DNA of 27,328 nucleotides, from IMG/VR virus record IMGVR_UViG_3300027736_002674, positions 1 through 27,328 of that record. One strand, given 5' to 3'. The stretch is from a virus. Under the pieces are notes generated by a model. The model was not told the DNA's origin. It did not search any database and saw nothing but the letters and a program-made list of their open reading frames with translations. Positions within the stretch are counted from its first letter, which is position 1. Each line of letters opens with the position of its first letter. Positions 2,842 to 19,980 of this stretch are shown piece by piece. A program made the position numbers and the translations under genes.

Positions 2842-2867
2842 AAAAAAAAGCCCACCGAAGTGGGCTT
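2842..2867 (-). terminator. strong intrinsic terminator of the tmRNA
   Basis: On the minus strand AAGCCCAC, a UUCG tetraloop and GTGGGCTT are followed by six more T. It lies just past the 3' hairpin of the tmRNA coding piece. Confidence 0.9.
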
Positions 2868-2869
2868 GG

Positions 2870-3026
2870 TTGTTTCTGTTACGAGGTATTTCCTACCCTA
2901 GGCAACTCACGCTGCCAAAGAATAAACGCTGTCGTTTGCATTTACGGTTTTTGCTTGATTAACGGTCATCGCCTACCGTGCTGTCCACTTCAATACTTCT
3001 GACCCAATCGATCCTGTGTCATCCCC
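2870..3026 (-). ncRNA. ssrA: tmRNA coding piece (permuted, two-piece tmRNA)
   Basis: The 5' end GGGGATGACACAGGATCGAT matches the tmRNA tRNA-like D-arm half. The seven bases GGGGATG pair with CATCTCC of the acceptor piece (one G-U). Further in, an ACGG/CCGT stem (pseudoknot region) precedes the tag frame at 2907-2939, which reads from a GCA resume codon as ANDSVYSLAA and ends in TGA. A hairpin (GTTGC..GGTA/TACC..GTAAC) closes the 3' side, then the terminator. The tag has the usual AND start and LAA end that ClpXP recognises. The 3' boundary is approximate. The acceptor half is encoded upstream, so this is the circularly permuted form. Confidence 0.88.
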
Positions 3027-3050
3027 ACCTAAATACACCTTATACACTTA
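3027..3050 (-). ncRNA. excised linker of the permuted tmRNA precursor
   Basis: These 24 bases join the acceptor piece to the coding piece. Together with the flanks they form a hairpin (CCACCTAA against TTTAGGTGG) that continues the acceptor stem. Processing would remove this segment to leave two RNA chains held by base pairing, as known for permuted tmRNAs. Confidence 0.75.
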
Positions 3051-3088
3051 GGTGGAGATGCCGGGCACTGCCCCCGGGTCTTGGCTCC
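3051..3088 (-). ncRNA. ssrA: tmRNA acceptor piece
   Basis: The segment begins near GGAGCCAAGA. It then forms a T-arm-like stem CCGGG/CCCGG around the loop GGCAGTG, followed by CATCTCC (acceptor strand) and ACC. Only CC of the CCA end is encoded; the final A would be added after processing. The loop lacks the usual TTC of T-loops. The 5' end may extend toward 3108. No clear promoter is visible between this piece and the gene at 3123, so it may be co-transcribed with that gene. Confidence 0.83.
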
Positions 3089-3122
3089 ATTTTTATCCGC
3101 TTCATACAGCAATAACTCTTAT

Positions 3123-3425
3123 TTAACGCTGATAGCAATTGCGCTCGCGGTAAATTTGTCCATCCGGCATCTGAATTTCTCTCCACGACGTGCAAATGGT
3201 CTGGGGTGGTACGATCACTTGCTCACGTTGAACAACTACTGGTTGCGGTTGATTCTGATTGGCAATGATTGCGCCTGCAATGCCACCAATGATCAATGGT
3301 GCCACCCAATCATTACGTTCAACAACAACAGTGCGTGGTGGTTCCCAATAACGATGCTCATGCCGCCATTGTGCTTGTGCTGCGGTTGCTGCCAGCAATG
3401 CGATTACCAAAAATAATTTTTTCAT
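3123..3425 (-). CDS. exported glycine-zipper-like protein (100 aa)
   Basis: A signal peptide (MKKLFLVIALLAATAAQA) ends at an AQA-Q site. The mature protein has a short hydrophobic Gly/Ala segment (APLIIGGIAGAIIANQ) like the glycine-zipper segments of outer-membrane-associated bacterial proteins. It ends with a Cys-bearing tail (TICTSWREIQMPDGQIYRER). GGAG lies eight bases before the ATG. It is preceded by the 38-base element (3438-3475) and followed by the tmRNA. Such a protein probably acts in the host envelope; exact role unknown. Confidence 0.78.
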   Translation of the reverse strand: MKKLFLVIALLAATAAQAQWRHEHRYWEPPRTVVVERNDWVAPLIIGGIAGAIIANQNQPQPVVVQREQVIVPPQTICTSWREIQMPDGQIYRERNCYQR

Positions 3426-4183: not shown

Positions 4184-4258
4184 TGGTCCGGCGTAACAGA
4201 ATCGAACTGCTATTTAGGGAGTAGAAATCCCCTGTATTATCCATTATACGAACGCCAG
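4184..4258 (-). tRNA. tRNA-Arg (anticodon UCU), CCA encoded
   Basis: All arms fold: acceptor CTGGCGT/ACGCCGG, D-stem GTAT/ATAC, anticodon stem GGGGA/TCCCT around TTTCTAC (anticodon TCT), T-stem AGCAG/CTGTT around TTCGATT. Discriminator A and CCA are encoded. It would read AGA and AGG codons. Confidence 0.93.
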
Positions 4259-4263
4259 TTGTT

Positions 4264-4340
4264 TGGTGGGACCTGTGTGATTCGAACACACCACCCAGCG
4301 ATTATGAGTCGCTTGCTCTAACCTAATGAGCTAAGGTCCC
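4264..4340 (-). tRNA. tRNA with CAU anticodon, probably Ile2 (AUA)
   Basis: Acceptor GGGACCT/AGGTCCC, D-stem GCTC/GAGC, anticodon stem AGCGA/TCGCT around CTCATAA (CAT), T-stem GTGTG/CACAC around TTCGAAT, then ACCA. The anticodon stem-loop GCGACTCATAATCGC is that of bacterial tRNA-Ile2, whose C34 is modified by TilS to read AUA. Elongator Met is the alternative. Confidence 0.9.
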
Positions 4341-6687: not shown

Positions 6688-7114
6688 TATTAGCTTGTTC
6701 TTTGTTGTGATACGGGCCTTGATAGCTGTATCGTTGTAGTGTGATCAGTTTGGGATTCTGTACCATCTTCCAGGCTCGATGCTTTTTGACATAGTACCAT
6801 CCGGCAGCAAACCAGCTTTTGCTGTGTTCTTCTTGAGTGAACAGCGGCAGTCGATGTTGTATGTCCCACATGGCATTGAACACTTTTTGTCCGGTGTCAT
6901 AGCCATACACTTGATTTTCTGGATTGGGCCGGATTTCAACAGCCGGCACAAACTCAATATCTCGATCCAGCATCTTGATGGTCTTGTATTTTTTTACTGT
7001 GTTGCTGATCTTCACAGTGTAGCCATCGTCCTGTGCTTCAATTTGCCCAACCTTGCGGTTGTCTTTTTTCAGTATCCAATAGCGGTCAGCTATTACTGGC
7101 ATTGCTAATATCAT
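6668..7114 (-). CDS. conserved phage hypothetical protein (148 aa)
   Basis: The start MILAMPVIADRYWILKKDNR is at 7114, chosen because GGAG lies six bases upstream; ATG at 7102 is an alternative. Blocks such as YGYDTGQKVFNAMWDIQHRL and AAGWYYVKKHRAWKMVQNPK look well conserved and I recall similar proteins in marine T4-like phages. The gene overlaps RNase H by 29 bases. Basic, Trp/Tyr-rich; function unknown. Confidence 0.72.
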   Translation of the reverse strand: MILAMPVIADRYWILKKDNRKVGQIEAQDDGYTVKISNTVKKYKTIKMLDRDIEFVPAVEIRPNPENQVYGYDTGQKVFNAMWDIQHRLPLFTQEEHSKSWFAAGWYYVKKHRAWKMVQNPKLITLQRYSYQGPYHNKEQANNASVRL

Positions 7115-8108
7115 CTAGTTCTCCTGTGTATGTTTTGTTCAACCAGCGGCCAATGCTGTCTGCAGATTCGCTGAGTTTGACCAAATCGTATTTGCCGCAA
7201 AATCGCAAGAAGTGTGTGCCCACCTGGCCCACATCCTTGTGACTGATCTGTTCATGTATGGCTGTGTCTACCAACAGTTTGATCTCATCAGGTTGAGCAG
7301 TAAGATCGATCAAGGTGCGATTGCGTTCGTAATCGTCTAGCACACGATGTTCAGCACCTTCGTGGTCGGTCCAACGCTGCAACATGAGATTGTTCCAACT
7401 GTAGCCTTTTTTCTCTCGGTCGGCAAAGGCTTCACGGAGACCAACTTTATTCTTTGTGCCTTTTTCACGAACTCCTGGATATGCGCTGAACACATTGTCT
7501 GAGCTGTCGCCACGCATACACTTCTCAAACAGCAGCCAAGCTGGATCTGGAATGGTCTTTGGCTGTTTGGTTTTTTTATCTTTGACAGCATTGCCTTTGG
7601 CATCGAATATGCCTTCCAGCGTGATCAGTTCGTCTGTGATGCCATTGAACTGCTGAACATTGGGCGCGATCAGTTGCACAAAATCAGTGTCCGAACTAAC
7701 CACTATGTGTTCGTCCTGAGGGTGCAATGCAATCCATCGTGCAATCACATCATCTGCTTCGGCCTGGGCATGACGTATTACACTGCAATTGGTCTTGTTG
7801 CTCAGATATTGTGTCAGCTCATCATAGGTTTCCCAAAACAGCTTGTCTTCTTCGGCTTCGGTTTCAGTCATCTTGCCACGTGCCACAGCACGATTGGCCT
7901 TGTATGGCCGGTAATGGTCTTTGCGCCAGCTGCGACCTTCTAGTGCAAATACCACATGATCAGCATCAAATCTGCGAGCCACTTTGTTTGCTGCCATCAG
8001 TGTCACATGCAATGCAAACCCCAGTTTGGTCCAGGCGTCTGATGCACGGTGAGCACTGTGCCGTGCTCGGAAAAACATGTTGGCAGTGTCAATCAGTAGG
8101 TATTTCAT
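7086..8108 (-). CDS. rnh: T4-type RNase H, 5'-3' flap exonuclease (340 aa)
   Basis: The FEN/T4 RNase H signature Asp motifs are in order: LLIDTANMFFRARH (Asp7), AQAEADDVIARW, VVSSDTDFVQL and MRGDSSDNVFSAYPGVREKG. The last is the H3TH region that ends in the helix-hairpin-helix. T4 RNase H removes RNA primers from lagging-strand fragments; its length (305) is similar. The start MKYLLIDTAN at 8108 overlaps the preceding stop by 20 bases; a longer frame to 8183 would add residues from inside that gene. It is the clearest T4-like replication gene in the window. Confidence 0.88.
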   Translation of the reverse strand: MKYLLIDTANMFFRARHSAHRASDAWTKLGFALHVTLMAANKVARRFDADHVVFALEGRSWRKDHYRPYKANRAVARGKMTETEAEEDKLFWETYDELTQYLSNKTNCSVIRHAQAEADDVIARWIALHPQDEHIVVSSDTDFVQLIAPNVQQFNGITDELITLEGIFDAKGNAVKDKKTKQPKTIPDPAWLLFEKCMRGDSSDNVFSAYPGVREKGTKNKVGLREAFADREKKGYSWNNLMLQRWTDHEGAEHRVLDDYERNRTLIDLTAQPDEIKLLVDTAIHEQISHKDVGQVGTHFLRFCGKYDLVKLSESADSIGRWLNKTYTGELDDISNASNS

Positions 8109-10179: not shown

Positions 10180-11043
10180 TCAGGTGCCCCATTCGTTTTT
10201 AAACAACGGAACCTGCAATCGATCACTGTATCGTAATCCATGTTTCATTGCCAACAGTGCTACATTACGATTGTTCATTGCATAAACACTTTCTACCCCG
10301 CCCACTGGCATTAGATAAACGTGTCCTGAGAATCCAGCACTACGATATTCAACAATGGCACGTTCGGCATCCACAAAGTCTTGTTCTGTGGCAATAACAA
10401 ACTTCAAATATGCTGTGCCATATTCTTCATACTCGTATACAAGTTTGGGTTTGATAGCATCCGACCACGGCTCTCCGCTGCATGGTAATTTGGCACTCAC
10501 ACTAAATGTAACGTCTCTCCAAAAGTCAATATCATCATGATATTTCCATGTATGCAGGTATTGTTTGAATTCAGTTGTTAGTTTCTGAGTGCCATTTGTC
10601 TCAAAGGTAATTTCTTTAAGACCTTTCATCTTGGGATGATCCAACAAGTCCGGATATTGTTTCTGCCATCCCAGCAATGGTTCGCCTCCGGTGATAACCA
10701 AATGCTCATCGCGCCACTCACCATGCGGAAGTATTTCCATAATGCGATCCACAATCGCATCTGTAGTCAGCATTGGGCTGTAGTCTTTAAAACGTGGATC
10801 CCAACTAGCATAGCTATCACAGCCTGTGCTTACTAGTGGCAAATCCTTATATGCTCCAAAAGGCATTTGTGCATCTTGTATGGCAATTGCCTCAACTTCT
10901 GTGCTTAGTTCACCACGTGGCATGCCAAAGCCTGCACATTTGAAGTTGCAACCAAATGTGCGTAAGAACACACTGGGCACACCCATGTATTTGCCTTCAC
11001 CTTGTATGCTGTAGAATAGTTCTGCTATTTTAATTTTGCTCAT
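10180..11043 (-). CDS. queE: QueE-like 7-carboxy-7-deazaguanine synthase (287 aa)
   Basis: The QueE start FYSIQGEGKYMGVPSVFLRT and the radical SAM region are clear. QueE converts 6-carboxytetrahydropterin to 7-carboxy-7-deazaguanine. The cluster motif is stretched: Cys32, Cys36, then 38 residues before Cys75 in GCDSYASW, which matches the CDTxYSW part that normally follows at once (CxxxCxxC). Further motifs are VITGGEPLLGWQ and EITFETNGTQKL. At 287 residues it is longer than the usual 210-240. It works with FolE and QueD of this window. The start overlaps the upstream stop (ATGA). Confidence 0.87.
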   Translation of the reverse strand: MSKIKIAELFYSIQGEGKYMGVPSVFLRTFGCNFKCAGFGMPRGELSTEVEAIAIQDAQMPFGAYKDLPLVSTGCDSYASWDPRFKDYSPMLTTDAIVDRIMEILPHGEWRDEHLVITGGEPLLGWQKQYPDLLDHPKMKGLKEITFETNGTQKLTTEFKQYLHTWKYHDDIDFWRDVTFSVSAKLPCSGEPWSDAIKPKLVYEYEEYGTAYLKFVIATEQDFVDAERAIVEYRSAGFSGHVYLMPVGGVESVYAMNNRNVALLAMKHGLRYSDRLQVPLFKNEWGT

Positions 11044-13398: not shown

Positions 13399-15399
13399 TT
13401 AATACGTTTTTTTAATAGAAAAAGTACCTTGTGCTTTGGCAGCACCAGCACCGCGATGTGTACCTTCGAGGTTTTCAACTCCTACCAAATCCACTGTGGC
13501 TTTGCCAAAATTTCTGCGTCTTGCAAAATAAAACAACTCCAAAAATCGATTGCGGCTCATGGTTTTGTCTTCTGGAAAGTCCAAGCGATATGTAGTGGTG
13601 GTCTTTTGTAGAGCTTGGTTGAAACTTAGATAATCCCAAATATTATAATCCAATTCAAGATTCATTGGATATTGATTTCTGTCGGGGTATTTGATGTAGT
13701 AACCTCTTTGCAGTTTCATCAGGCTGGCCAACAAATCTTTGGGCAAGTCGTAGCGTTGTAAAAATATTTCCAAGAAATCATACAGTTCATCCACACGATC
13801 TTCTTGATGCATGTTCATACTGGTTCTATGAATGATATTCCAACCGTGTATCTCCACCCCAATTTTGGGATGGTTGATTCGACCAGTGGTCATCCAGTTG
13901 GAGAAATATTGCCTTGCTTCGGCTTCTTCCTTTTTTAACCAATCGTTGGTTAGAAAGTACGCAAATAAATCTTCATAGTAGTCGTTGTAACTTAGGCCTT
14001 TGTACTTGTTGATGAATCTAGCAACCAGAGTGGCAAATCCATTGATATGGAATGTGGTCTGGAACCACGAAAAGATTTGTGCATCCAACATCACCGGAGT
14101 AGGCATATCCTTGGTGCCTGTTATGACATCAATGCTTTCTTCAATGTGTTCCACACTGTAACTGCCAGCAAAGTAATCAGTAACAGGTTGGCTGGTGATC
14201 TTGAACAGTTTCTTTTGCAACAAGTTCATTTCGGCGTTTTCCAACAACTGCGCCTGGAACACAGTGATACCAGTGTGCTGATTCAGGTCATACAGCGCAT
14301 AGAAGTTTTTCTTCCAGGACTCCAATGACTCACCAGGCAAGCCAAGTATGAGTTCTGTGTATGCAGGAATGTTGCGCTGGTCACACAGCTCAAACACTTC
14401 TTCCAACTTGTTCATTTCCATGTTTTTGCGACGAATGTTTTCCAGCACATCCAAATCTAAACTTTGCACACTCAGTGTCAGGCCTTGATTGAAGCCACGT
14501 GCGTCCAACAATTTCTTCACAATGTCTATGACTTCTTTTTTTTGATTCTTGGCCCAGGCCACACTGAATGTTCTTGGTGAGCCGTACTTTTCTTGCATCT
14601 CAATGATCTTGTCTGCAATCATGCCATCACGTTCGGGGAACATGCCAAAGTTGGCATCTGTAATTGAGATCCAGTCAAAGTTGCGTTGGGCCATCCATTC
14701 CAGTTCGGCAAACACACGTTCTAATTCAAACTTCTTGACCTTGTTGTAGGTCAGACTGCCCCAGTCACAAAATGTACAAGCAAATGGACACCCACGATTG
14801 GTTTCCAAAGTACCTTGCCATGTCACGTCAGGATGATCGGCGATCATCTGGTCAAAGATGCCTGCCAAGTATGGACTGGCCACTTCTTCCAGTGATTCAA
14901 TACGTTTGGCATCTTGCGTCTTCACTGCTTGACCATTTCTATTGATCAACACACCAGATACATTTTCCCAATCTTTGATTTCAAAATGCTGTAGCACACT
15001 TTTGAAAGTTATTTCTCCTTCGTAGCAGATCACAAGATCTATAAAAGGTTCTTTTACAAACAAGTCGGGGTCGGTAATTGCAACTTCGGGGCCGCCAAAC
15101 ACAGTCAACACAGCAGGATTTATTTCTTTGATCCGTTTGGCCAGTGCATAATTGTACCGATGATTCCATACATAGGTGCTGAAAGTCACAATTTGATTTT
15201 GTGCTAGACGCTGTGCCAACGGTTCTATGGCATCTCTGCGCCAGATCCAATCAGTGGCTTCAAATCGTTCGCGGATCTCTGGGTCAGCTAGACTGTAACT
15301 CCATACCACACCAGCCGAATAGGGCAGGTAGTACGCATTGAACTCTTTGGGACCTTGTTGGAAATTGGGTTGGACCCAGGCAATTTTATGTTTCATCAT
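13399..15399 (-). CDS. B12-binding-type radical SAM enzyme (666 aa)
   Basis: The N-terminal about 170 residues look like a cobalamin-binding Rossmann domain (VTFSTYVWNHRYNYALAKRI, AVLTVFGGPEVAITDPDL, VICYEGEITF) without a DxHxxG motif, as usual in this class. The radical SAM core carries Cys204, Cys208 and Cys211 in TNRGCPFACTFCDWGS, followed by WISITDANFGMF and TELILGLPGESLESW. A long C-terminal extension holds no domain I know. Such enzymes perform methylations or other radical changes on unreactive carbons. The gene is flanked by two paralogous glycosyltransferases, with tight overlap upstream (ATGA). The substrate is unknown; a sugar is plausible. Confidence 0.85.
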   Translation of the reverse strand: MMKHKIAWVQPNFQQGPKEFNAYYLPYSAGVVWSYSLADPEIRERFEATDWIWRRDAIEPLAQRLAQNQIVTFSTYVWNHRYNYALAKRIKEINPAVLTVFGGPEVAITDPDLFVKEPFIDLVICYEGEITFKSVLQHFEIKDWENVSGVLINRNGQAVKTQDAKRIESLEEVASPYLAGIFDQMIADHPDVTWQGTLETNRGCPFACTFCDWGSLTYNKVKKFELERVFAELEWMAQRNFDWISITDANFGMFPERDGMIADKIIEMQEKYGSPRTFSVAWAKNQKKEVIDIVKKLLDARGFNQGLTLSVQSLDLDVLENIRRKNMEMNKLEEVFELCDQRNIPAYTELILGLPGESLESWKKNFYALYDLNQHTGITVFQAQLLENAEMNLLQKKLFKITSQPVTDYFAGSYSVEHIEESIDVITGTKDMPTPVMLDAQIFSWFQTTFHINGFATLVARFINKYKGLSYNDYYEDLFAYFLTNDWLKKEEAEARQYFSNWMTTGRINHPKIGVEIHGWNIIHRTSMNMHQEDRVDELYDFLEIFLQRYDLPKDLLASLMKLQRGYYIKYPDRNQYPMNLELDYNIWDYLSFNQALQKTTTTYRLDFPEDKTMSRNRFLELFYFARRRNFGKATVDLVGVENLEGTHRGAGAAKAQGTFSIKKTY

Positions 15400-18599: not shown

Positions 18600-19388
18600 T
18601 TATCTTGGTGCAAACTCTTGTTGTAGTTTGATGTTGTCAAAGAACTCTTTCTTGGTGCTTTGATCGGTCTGGAATGCGCCTTTGAGCACAGTGGTCTGTG
18701 TGAGACTTGAATGTGCCATGATGCCACGATTTTCACAGCAACCATGCACCGCTTGTACATATACTGCCACGTCTTTGGCATCAGTGGCTTTCATGATTTC
18801 TCTTGCGATGTCGTTGCAGAGTTCTTCCTGAAGAGTACCACGACGCGAGCACCATTGAGCAATACGAGTGTACTTAGACAAACCAATAAGTTTGTTAGCG
18901 GCCAAAATACCAATATAAGCAACACCGCTAACAGGTTGATGATGGTGCGAACACATTGAACGTAGCTCACTTCTAACCACAAGCATGCCTTCGTAACGGT
19001 CCGCTGAATCATTTGGAAATGCTGTTGCGTCTGGTGCTGGTTCATATCTTCCTGCCATTATTTCGTTGTAGTACATCTTGGCCAAGCGGTGTGCTGTGCC
19101 TCGTGAGTTGGGATCATTCTCACGATCGATCAGTAATGCGTCCAATACTTGTTCAAATGCTTCTGTTGCTTCGTTGATCAAATGTTCTCGATCAGATTCC
19201 GCAACATAGTCACTGATGTTGTCTCCGGCCCAGAAGCGTTTGTTGTCTGCTTGCATACGTTCACGCAATGCAGTGCTAAGATGCTTTCCGGCAGCTCCGG
19301 GTGCTTTCTTTACATACAATGTTTGTTCCATTGGCACAAATTCTTGTTCGGGAGGAGTCAGTAGTGTATCAGGTACAAAGTTGGTCAT
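18600..19388 (-). CDS. folE: GTP cyclohydrolase I (262 aa)
   Basis: FolE motifs are present: RYEGMLVVRSELRSMCSHHH (zinc Cys and His pair), PVSGVAYIGILAANKLIGLS, CSRRGTLQEELCNDIA and VHGCCENRGIMAHSSLTQT (second zinc Cys). The enzyme makes 7,8-dihydroneopterin triphosphate from GTP, the first step toward 7-deazaguanines. An N-terminal stretch of about 60 residues precedes the core. The ATG at 19388 lies two bases after the stop of the aminotransferase-like gene. It supplies QueD and QueE of this window. Confidence 0.9.
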   Translation of the reverse strand: MTNFVPDTLLTPPEQEFVPMEQTLYVKKAPGAAGKHLSTALRERMQADNKRFWAGDNISDYVAESDREHLINEATEAFEQVLDALLIDRENDPNSRGTAHRLAKMYYNEIMAGRYEPAPDATAFPNDSADRYEGMLVVRSELRSMCSHHHQPVSGVAYIGILAANKLIGLSKYTRIAQWCSRRGTLQEELCNDIAREIMKATDAKDVAVYVQAVHGCCENRGIMAHSSLTQTTVLKGAFQTDQSTKKEFFDNIKLQQEFAPR

Positions 19389-19389
19389 G

Positions 19390-19980
19390 TTATGGTTCAA
19401 TGGTTATATTTCTCAAATCTGGATACTGTACAAACACAGGTGCCTGTGATTGGTATTGCTCTAGCAATTCTAATCCGCGCACCGCATCTTCAATGGTAGG
19501 CTTGTAATGATATCCTAGCCGGAAAGTCTTTTGTGACTGCCAGGGTGTGATATTTAGGTCGCGACCATCATATCGTTGTTTTATCATGGTATTGTATGCT
19601 TTCTTGTTATCTAACAGTATAGCACCGCCATGGCCTATTTGTAAAGGTTTTGTATGTCCAAAACTCACGCATTGCATCTGCCCAGCTTGATACATGTCAG
19701 CTTCCAGGCGCCTGGCGCTGTCCCATACCCTGGTATACACAAAGTTGTATTCGCCTGTCCAAGTTTGTTCAGGTTCGTCCATGTACACATAGTCAATGCC
19801 CAATTTGTGCATGGTCATTGGTATGCTGAGATAGGTGTAAGGAGTCATTTTAAGACCGCGTACCCGATCATAACGCAAGCACAGTTCGATTGCATGGGTG
19901 CAGCAATCGGTCATGATTGCATACGGAGCGCCAGTGAATTTGGCCAGTGCTTGTTCAAACTCAAGAATTTTGTCGAACAT
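19390..19980 (-). CDS. short DegT/DnrJ/EryC1-type aminotransferase (196 aa)
   Basis: The PLP-enzyme pattern of the DegT family is visible: TGAPYAIMTDCCTHAIELCL near the N terminus, MTPYTYLSIPMTMHKLGIDY, and SFGHTKPLQIGHGGAILLDN with the likely PLP lysine at residue 111. Full-length members have about 370-400 residues; this one ends soon after the lysine region and lacks most of the small C-terminal domain. It overlaps the epimerase by 20 bases. It could be a reduced but active sugar aminotransferase or a non-catalytic relative. Confidence 0.75.
   Translation of the reverse strand: MFDKILEFEQALAKFTGAPYAIMTDCCTHAIELCLRYDRVRGLKMTPYTYLSIPMTMHKLGIDYVYMDEPEQTWTGEYNFVYTRVWDSARRLEADMYQAGQMQCVSFGHTKPLQIGHGGAILLDNKKAYNTMIKQRYDGRDLNITPWQSQKTFRLGYHYKPTIEDAVRGLELLEQYQSQAPVFVQYPDLRNITIEP

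Follow-up and report, generated by a model that had tools for sequence, protein, structure and literature searches.

A circularly permuted, two-piece tmRNA gene in a jumbo-phage fragment, with relatives whose spacers hold small protein genes

The window, by which we mean the whole stretch of 27,328 bases analysed here, is a viral record from IMG/VR. Judged by its sequence, the segment 3111-2845 on the minus strand is an intact circularly permuted tmRNA gene, phage-borne, two-piece and with its own tag. The features of the locus and its neighbours are as follows.

3119..3126, minus strand: TTAAATAA, a weak and uncertain match to the T4-type late promoter box (from enrichment in relatives)
3051..3111, minus strand: 5' piece of the precursor, with the T-arm and the acceptor 3' strand (Rfam alignment, sequence)
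3060-3054, minus strand: acceptor 3' strand CATCTCC (sequence)
3053-3051, minus strand: ACC after CATCTCC (sequence)
3027..3050, minus strand: 24-nt spacer, a hairpin extending the acceptor helix, without nested gene (sequence, fold)
2868..3026, minus strand: coding piece (Rfam alignments)
3026-3020, minus strand: acceptor 5' strand GGGGATG, the start of the coding piece (sequence)
2907..2939, minus strand: tag frame ANDSVYSLAA with stop TGA, GCA...TGA (translation)
2873..2900, minus strand: 3' signature TAGGG...CCTCGTAACAGAAA, common to the phage lineage (pattern scans)
2842..2867, minus strand: intrinsic terminator, stem 2867-2848 and then a T-run (sequence)
4184..4258, minus strand: neighbouring tRNA-Arg (TCT)
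4264..4340, minus strand: neighbouring tRNA-Met (CAT)
7086..8108, minus strand: phage exonuclease (phrog_107, 1.4e-37), used as bait for finding relatives

The acceptor piece (3060-3054) is encoded ahead of the coding piece (3026-3020) on the minus strand, with the 24-nt spacer between them. This is the layout that the first-pass annotation had read from CATCTCC-ACC and GGGGATG, and its account of the parts was confirmed. Specifically, the two halves pair over seven bases, the third pair being G-U (G3-U70), and G3-U70 in the acceptor helix is an alanine identity determinant. The hairpin linker of 24 bases is located at 3050-3027 and prolongs the acceptor helix; unlike the spacers of nested-gene relatives described below, it has no ribosome-binding site followed by an open frame filling the spacer. 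The GCA-started tag frame is present at 2939-2907, with an alanine resume codon, an Ala-Ala end and then the stop, and encodes a tag of 10 aa, not of the 27–29-aa TGEVTVSGKNVKFSAR type. The terminator predicted after the coding half has its stem at 2867-2848 and its T-run. No shuffled sequence out of 200 was as stable as the window tmRNA, with a fold z-score of −3.28.

Consistent with this layout, Infernal gave matches over the cut-off to both Rfam models of interest, which, with the sequence and the fold, supports the earlier assignment to a phage-borne permuted tmRNA. RF04321 (tmRNA_permuted), a model that covers the tRNA-like domain, matched over its full length with 126.4 bits (E 1.1e-24; cut-off 47 bits). 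RF01850 (beta_tmRNA) matched with 101.7 bits (E 3.7e-30; cut-off 84 bits); in this alignment the 3' helix is not kept and consists mostly of non-standard pairs, and despite the score the T- and D-loops of the window are of another type than those of RF01850. ARAGORN did not call a permuted tmRNA in the window. Gene order, acceptor pairing, G3-U70 and tag layout are as in the tmRNAs of RF01849 (Alphaproteobacteria) and RF01850 (Betaproteobacteria). The T-loop GGCAGTx and the ATCGA D-arm are as in most of a bacterial sample whose members with these loops we take to be alphaproteobacterial. We dropped the idea that the combination of T-loop GGCAGTG and ATCGAT D-arm is novel, as GGCAGTA or GGCGGTA with ATCGA is usual in that sample.

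The window is, by sequence comparison, a fragment of an unisolated jumbo phage, because its exonuclease shares 82–83% identity with the enzymes encoded on two viral contigs, 320 and 332 kb long, while the best isolate homologues, from Pseudomonas phages of PA5oct type, reach 54% identity. The exonuclease was found in 16 of 20 large contigs, which had been picked for a tmRNA or long-tag match, and has at least 600 relatives in IMG/VR. The 320- and 332-kb contigs each carry a tmRNA holding a spacer frame (L331 and L308), that of L308 failing the ribosome-site rule given below. Among 80 contigs reached via the exonuclease and not via the tmRNA, 20 have a permuted tmRNA over the cut-off (14/50 and 6/30); many of the other 60 are short fragments, in which absence means little. 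SmpB (PF01668) had no match in the 20 large contigs, whereas the control gave matches in 10 of 14 named genomes; the phage would accordingly rely on the SmpB of its host. A bacterial origin of the contig was rejected on the basis of the IMG/VR record, viral relatives of up to 364 kb, and PHROG matches including the exonuclease and a virion structural protein.

Several other genes are also present on the minus strand of the window. These are a rubrerythrin at 762-1214 (PF02915, 2.9e-16), followed by an apparent rubredoxin-like frame with CxxC motifs recognised by eye; a QueE-like radical SAM protein (phrog_2076) and a GTP cyclohydrolase (phrog_2197) at 10180-11043 and 18600-19400, both preQ0-type pathway genes; and a 666-aa radical SAM protein with a B12-binding domain at 13399-15399 (PF04055, PF02310).

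The domain after the tag defines the lineage. The pattern TAGGGN{4,12}CCTCGTAACAGAAA occurs in at least 120 viral stretches of IMG/VR and at 2 places in all genome_contigs, L401 and L402. L401, a MAG contig of 3 kb that carries seven tRNAs besides the tmRNA, is probably mis-binned phage DNA; L402 does not parse as a tmRNA and is a chance match. The proposal that the lineage also lives in bacteria was therefore rejected. Thus, although the window passes the RF01850 cut-off, its 3' domain is nearly confined to viral contigs. The isolate Pelagibacter phage HTVC008M has the same signature, which indicates that the lineage reaches beyond jumbo phages; it was also the only match of a tmRNA search of INPHARED, covering 26% of the query at 76% identity.

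The loci contain 145 distinct places with the 3' signature, comprising 134 parsed permuted tmRNAs, 10 unparsed places that resemble permuted tmRNAs or are truncated at the end of a contig, and the chance match L402. The 133 tmRNAs besides that of the window came from the 3' signature (79), a long-tag pattern (41), another viral scan (8), Rfam hits (4) and a MAG (1), so that the set is a mixture and none of its shares is a population estimate. That other viral scan, whose yield is a lower bound, returned many loci without a tag, which are chance matches. The third acceptor pair is G-U in all 134 tmRNAs, the window included, while both strands vary at acceptor pairs 4–7 and at the T-stem pairs. 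The acceptor pairing is thus conserved in related phages as 15 different helices among 134 distinct tmRNAs; the parsing script required seven of seven acceptor pairs, and the evidence is the variety of helices, not the pairing rate. With a covariance-model match and pairing conserved in this way, the refutation criterion set by the first-pass annotation does not hold.

Two motifs are enriched upstream of the related tmRNAs, ATAAATA occurring in 24 of 133 (3.6 expected) and TAAATAA in 19 of 133 (3.7 expected). A T4-type box matching at 7 of 8 positions was present in 40 of 132 upstream regions against 17.9 expected, a signal that we consider weak, and the idea of a firm late promoter was dropped. 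A search of the minus strand found no sigma-70-type promoter for the window tmRNA.

The tags of the lineage fall into 10-aa LAA and 27–29-aa LAV/FAV forms. The 131 tags read include 85 of 10 aa and 43 of 27–29 aa, the long ones being over-represented because 41 of the 43 came via the long-tag scan; the ends are LAA (85), LAV (26), FAV (18) and IAA (2). The window tag has the short LAA form and is near common ones such as ANDSQFALAA. The sequence ANDSVYSLAA recurs in three other distinct tmRNAs of the set, one of which (L216) has a 122-aa nested gene. Long tags were also met without the tag scan: the 20 exonuclease-reached contigs with a tmRNA include eight closed 27–29-aa tags (L206, L207, L212, L214, L215, L221, L223, L224), of which L221 and L223 do not differ over the stretch compared; in the same 20, the tag of L208 is cut and that of L219 was read without certainty. 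The long-tag pattern matches 76 viral stretches, some perhaps by chance. A related pattern had no match in genome_contigs, and a search for the source of the long tag gave none in phage records or PHROGs; the long tag may resemble cyanobacterial tags. Codon-level selection on the long tag was not upheld, with no synonymous excess (pairwise codon differences: 1914 synonymous, 4276 non-synonymous); the evidence for its conservation is therefore the peptide alignment. Long tags without the LAA end would offer a test of whether phages give tagged proteins a different fate. Separately, L160, L183, L192, L496 and L522 are phage permuted tmRNAs with further, unrelated tags of 26–31 aa.

The spacers of many relatives differ from that of the window. 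Counted with the ACC, the spacers of the 133 tmRNAs reach 386 nt, with a median length of 78 nt; those of 78 bacterial permuted tmRNAs range from 14 to 130 nt. When the spacer is long, CCA is often followed directly by a ribosome-binding site (CCACCATAAGGA...ATG), and the frame fills the space. Specifically, a nested gene with its own ribosome-binding site just fits the spacer in 26 of the 59 related tmRNAs with spacers of at least 84 nt, against 3.0 expected when the start region was kept and the spacer interior shuffled; the other 33 fail this rule. The counts are 16 of 24 for spacers of at least 120 nt (0.34 expected), 10 of 35 for 84–119 nt (2.65 expected) and 0 of 41 for 60–83 nt (0.12 expected). 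Twenty-three of the 26 cases came via the 3' signature (23/79). Six frames accepted by eye (L305, L308, L328, L363, L369, L380) fail the ribosome-site rule and stand outside the 26. None of the 78 parsed bacterial tmRNAs, nearly all of them alphaproteobacterial-like, has a nested gene. The control drew on 398 genomes, of which 158 gave a match over the cut-off and from which 80 regions were taken, the first 20 for long spans; L439 and L484 did not parse and were dropped. By tag and loops the sample contains one beta-like member (L457, ANDERFALAA), so that it hardly covers betaproteobacterial spacers.

Homologous nested frames were compared by codon position. Three of six homologous nested pairs have a third-position excess (L331/L379, 10/7/33; L216/L378, 7/1/21; L324/L347, 4/2/13) and three do not (L332/L345, 0/1/0; L321/L224, 3/0/2; L309/L356, 12/6/12). 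The nested frame of L353 differs from a homologue outside the tmRNA in L401 by 19/3/22. Nested products include a thioredoxin (PF00085, 1.4e-20; from the second scan below), a DUF2061 protein (3.5e-20), a CxxCxxCC protein (1e-05) and small membrane proteins; in a Pfam search of 20 products, most matched no family over its cut-off. A given nested frame can be combined with different T-arms, acceptor strands and tags, and homologues exist outside tmRNAs as well. The spacer would therefore be a cassette-like site, and the nested genes and long tags of the relatives look, from their sequences, like a new variant. In L307, a 52-aa frame homologous to the L353 nested frame lies between apparently decayed tmRNA ends (GGACC...GAGCC), apart from an intact tmRNA.

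A second scan used the 5' end of the spacer as the sole query and returned 56 stretches, 55 with a five-pair T-stem and 49 with a coding piece. Near-identical copies are among these 49 frames, of which 40 are distinct. The frame ends one base ahead of the 5' acceptor strand, and so of the predicted RNase P cut, in 22 cases, 12–13 bases ahead of that strand in 10, and 12–54 bases beyond it in 13. Three others stop early with a second frame after, and one runs to the end of the locus. The spacer ends TGAT in 31 of 32 nested cases (the six accepted by eye included), 40 of 101 others and 10 of the 78 bacterial tmRNAs. The two ends of the spacer pair with each other beyond base-shuffled chance, and before processing this pairing could make the ribosome-binding site inaccessible. 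The zinc-ribbon-like nested frames of L530 and L508 (best Pfam match below the cut-off) run past the 5' acceptor strand into the coding piece.

Permuted tmRNAs on phages are already known. The accessible text of PMC9004378 reports tmRNAs in 402 of 18,146 phage genomes and a two-piece form for 53 of 133 distinct phage tmRNA structures, 50 of the 53 from marine or aquatic samples, and the window copy adds one more example. With these figures and the at least 120 IMG/VR stretches carrying the 3' domain of the lineage, the first-pass annotation was right to place such RNAs on phages and overstated their rarity. The same source describes permuted tmRNAs of HTVC008M and of OM43 phage Melnitz, both phage-borne like that of the window; their hosts are marine, unlike the window, and Melnitz has a glutamine riboswitch beside the tmRNA gene, which is a further difference. 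The tmRNA of HTVC008M is called by ARAGORN, and its tag, ANFNEYALAA, differs from that of the window.

A protein gene inside a tmRNA gene has a precedent of another kind. In the accessible text of PMC11915505, 36 of 883 group I intron forms of tmRNA have an endonuclease gene. As in the relatives of the window, the gene lies in a part absent from the mature RNA, but there it is a self-splicing intron in the T-loop, whereas here it is a processed spacer, and none of the products with a match so far is an endonuclease. That text, with 79 phage sequences among 97,179, lists a permuted tmRNA whose intervening sequence contains a tRNA gene and another with a repetitive element; it contains no mention of a protein gene in a permuted spacer. 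Our literature search, which left most subscription papers outside and is not proof of absence, returned no report of such a gene or of such long tags.

From the sequence, covarying structure, tag frame, terminator and phage-lineage membership of the window element, we infer its function. Very probably, the element is an intact circularly permuted jumbo-phage tmRNA that would act as a processed two-piece RNA and rescue ribosomes with host SmpB, in a lineage whose spacer would serve as a slot for small genes. Specifically, one precursor would be transcribed from the minus strand, perhaps late, and host tRNA-processing enzymes would excise the 24-nt spacer hairpin. The two pieces would remain paired and be charged with alanine through G3-U70. 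With host SmpB, ribosomes stalled on broken mRNAs would be rescued, and ANDSVYSLAA would be added so that host proteases remove the product. Either of the two roles suggested by the first-pass annotation, rescue late in infection or redirected proteolysis, could apply to the window tmRNA; the phage copy most likely keeps ribosomes available during mRNA breakdown in infection. The window would thus represent a further phage that supplies a ribosome-rescue RNA itself, and its copy can be assigned to a jumbo-phage lineage. In the lineage as a whole, the spacer removed by processing would have become a slot for small protein genes, with the window as the empty form, and in nested-gene relatives one precursor could yield both tmRNA and protein. 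A protein gene in a permuted tmRNA spacer would be a new way to pack an mRNA and a stable RNA in one transcript, and it would make the competition between RNase P processing and translation on one RNA testable.

Instead of rescuing ribosomes, the tmRNA might mainly tag host or phage proteins for destruction, for amino acids or timing control. tmRNA acts on stalled ribosomes and not on chosen proteins, which argues against this role, as does the window tag, a short LAA form close to a common one. The strong variation of tags in the lineage, from short LAA to long LAV/FAV forms, is consistent with it, and the accessible text of PMC9004378 proposes for phage permuted tmRNAs either that they keep the host machinery running or that they have host proteins degraded selectively, the latter for Melnitz; on balance we consider it unlikely as the main function. 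The absence of the tmRNA from 60 of the 80 related contigs, though many are short fragments, would fit a passenger acquired from a host and useless to the phage. This is very unlikely, as the element persists among widely diverged relatives, its helices covary, all 134 tmRNAs have G3-U70, and its 3' signature occurs almost only in viral stretches, one of the two genome_contigs places being chance. The TLD-only tmRNA of phage DS6A, which resembles a tmRNA-inhibiting form according to the accessible text of PMC4131195 and PMC11915505, suggests a third role, that of an inhibitor or decoy sequestering host SmpB or alanyl-tRNA synthetase. In the window copy both the tag frame and the coding piece are complete, and such a role for it is extremely improbable. 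Ribosome rescue thus remains the preferred reading of the window tmRNA.

A bolder extension, which we put forward as doubtful and quite unlikely, is that the tmRNA precursor of the lineage is a dual RNA in which tmRNA maturation is coupled to translation of the nested gene, the window copy being the form without cargo. Because 22 of the 49 nested frames end one base before the predicted RNase P cut and 13 end 12–54 bases beyond it, maturation would remove nearly the whole 3' end of the nested mRNA or deprive it of its stop codon. If the coupling is true, this mRNA would be a built-in substrate of the released tmRNA, giving a self-limiting, arfA-like control of the nested protein. Some spacers hold more than one frame. 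The 380-nt spacer of L532 (with ACC) contains two, each after the same ATAAGGAAGTTT element, and L363, L529 and L544 likewise have two small frames in the spacer.
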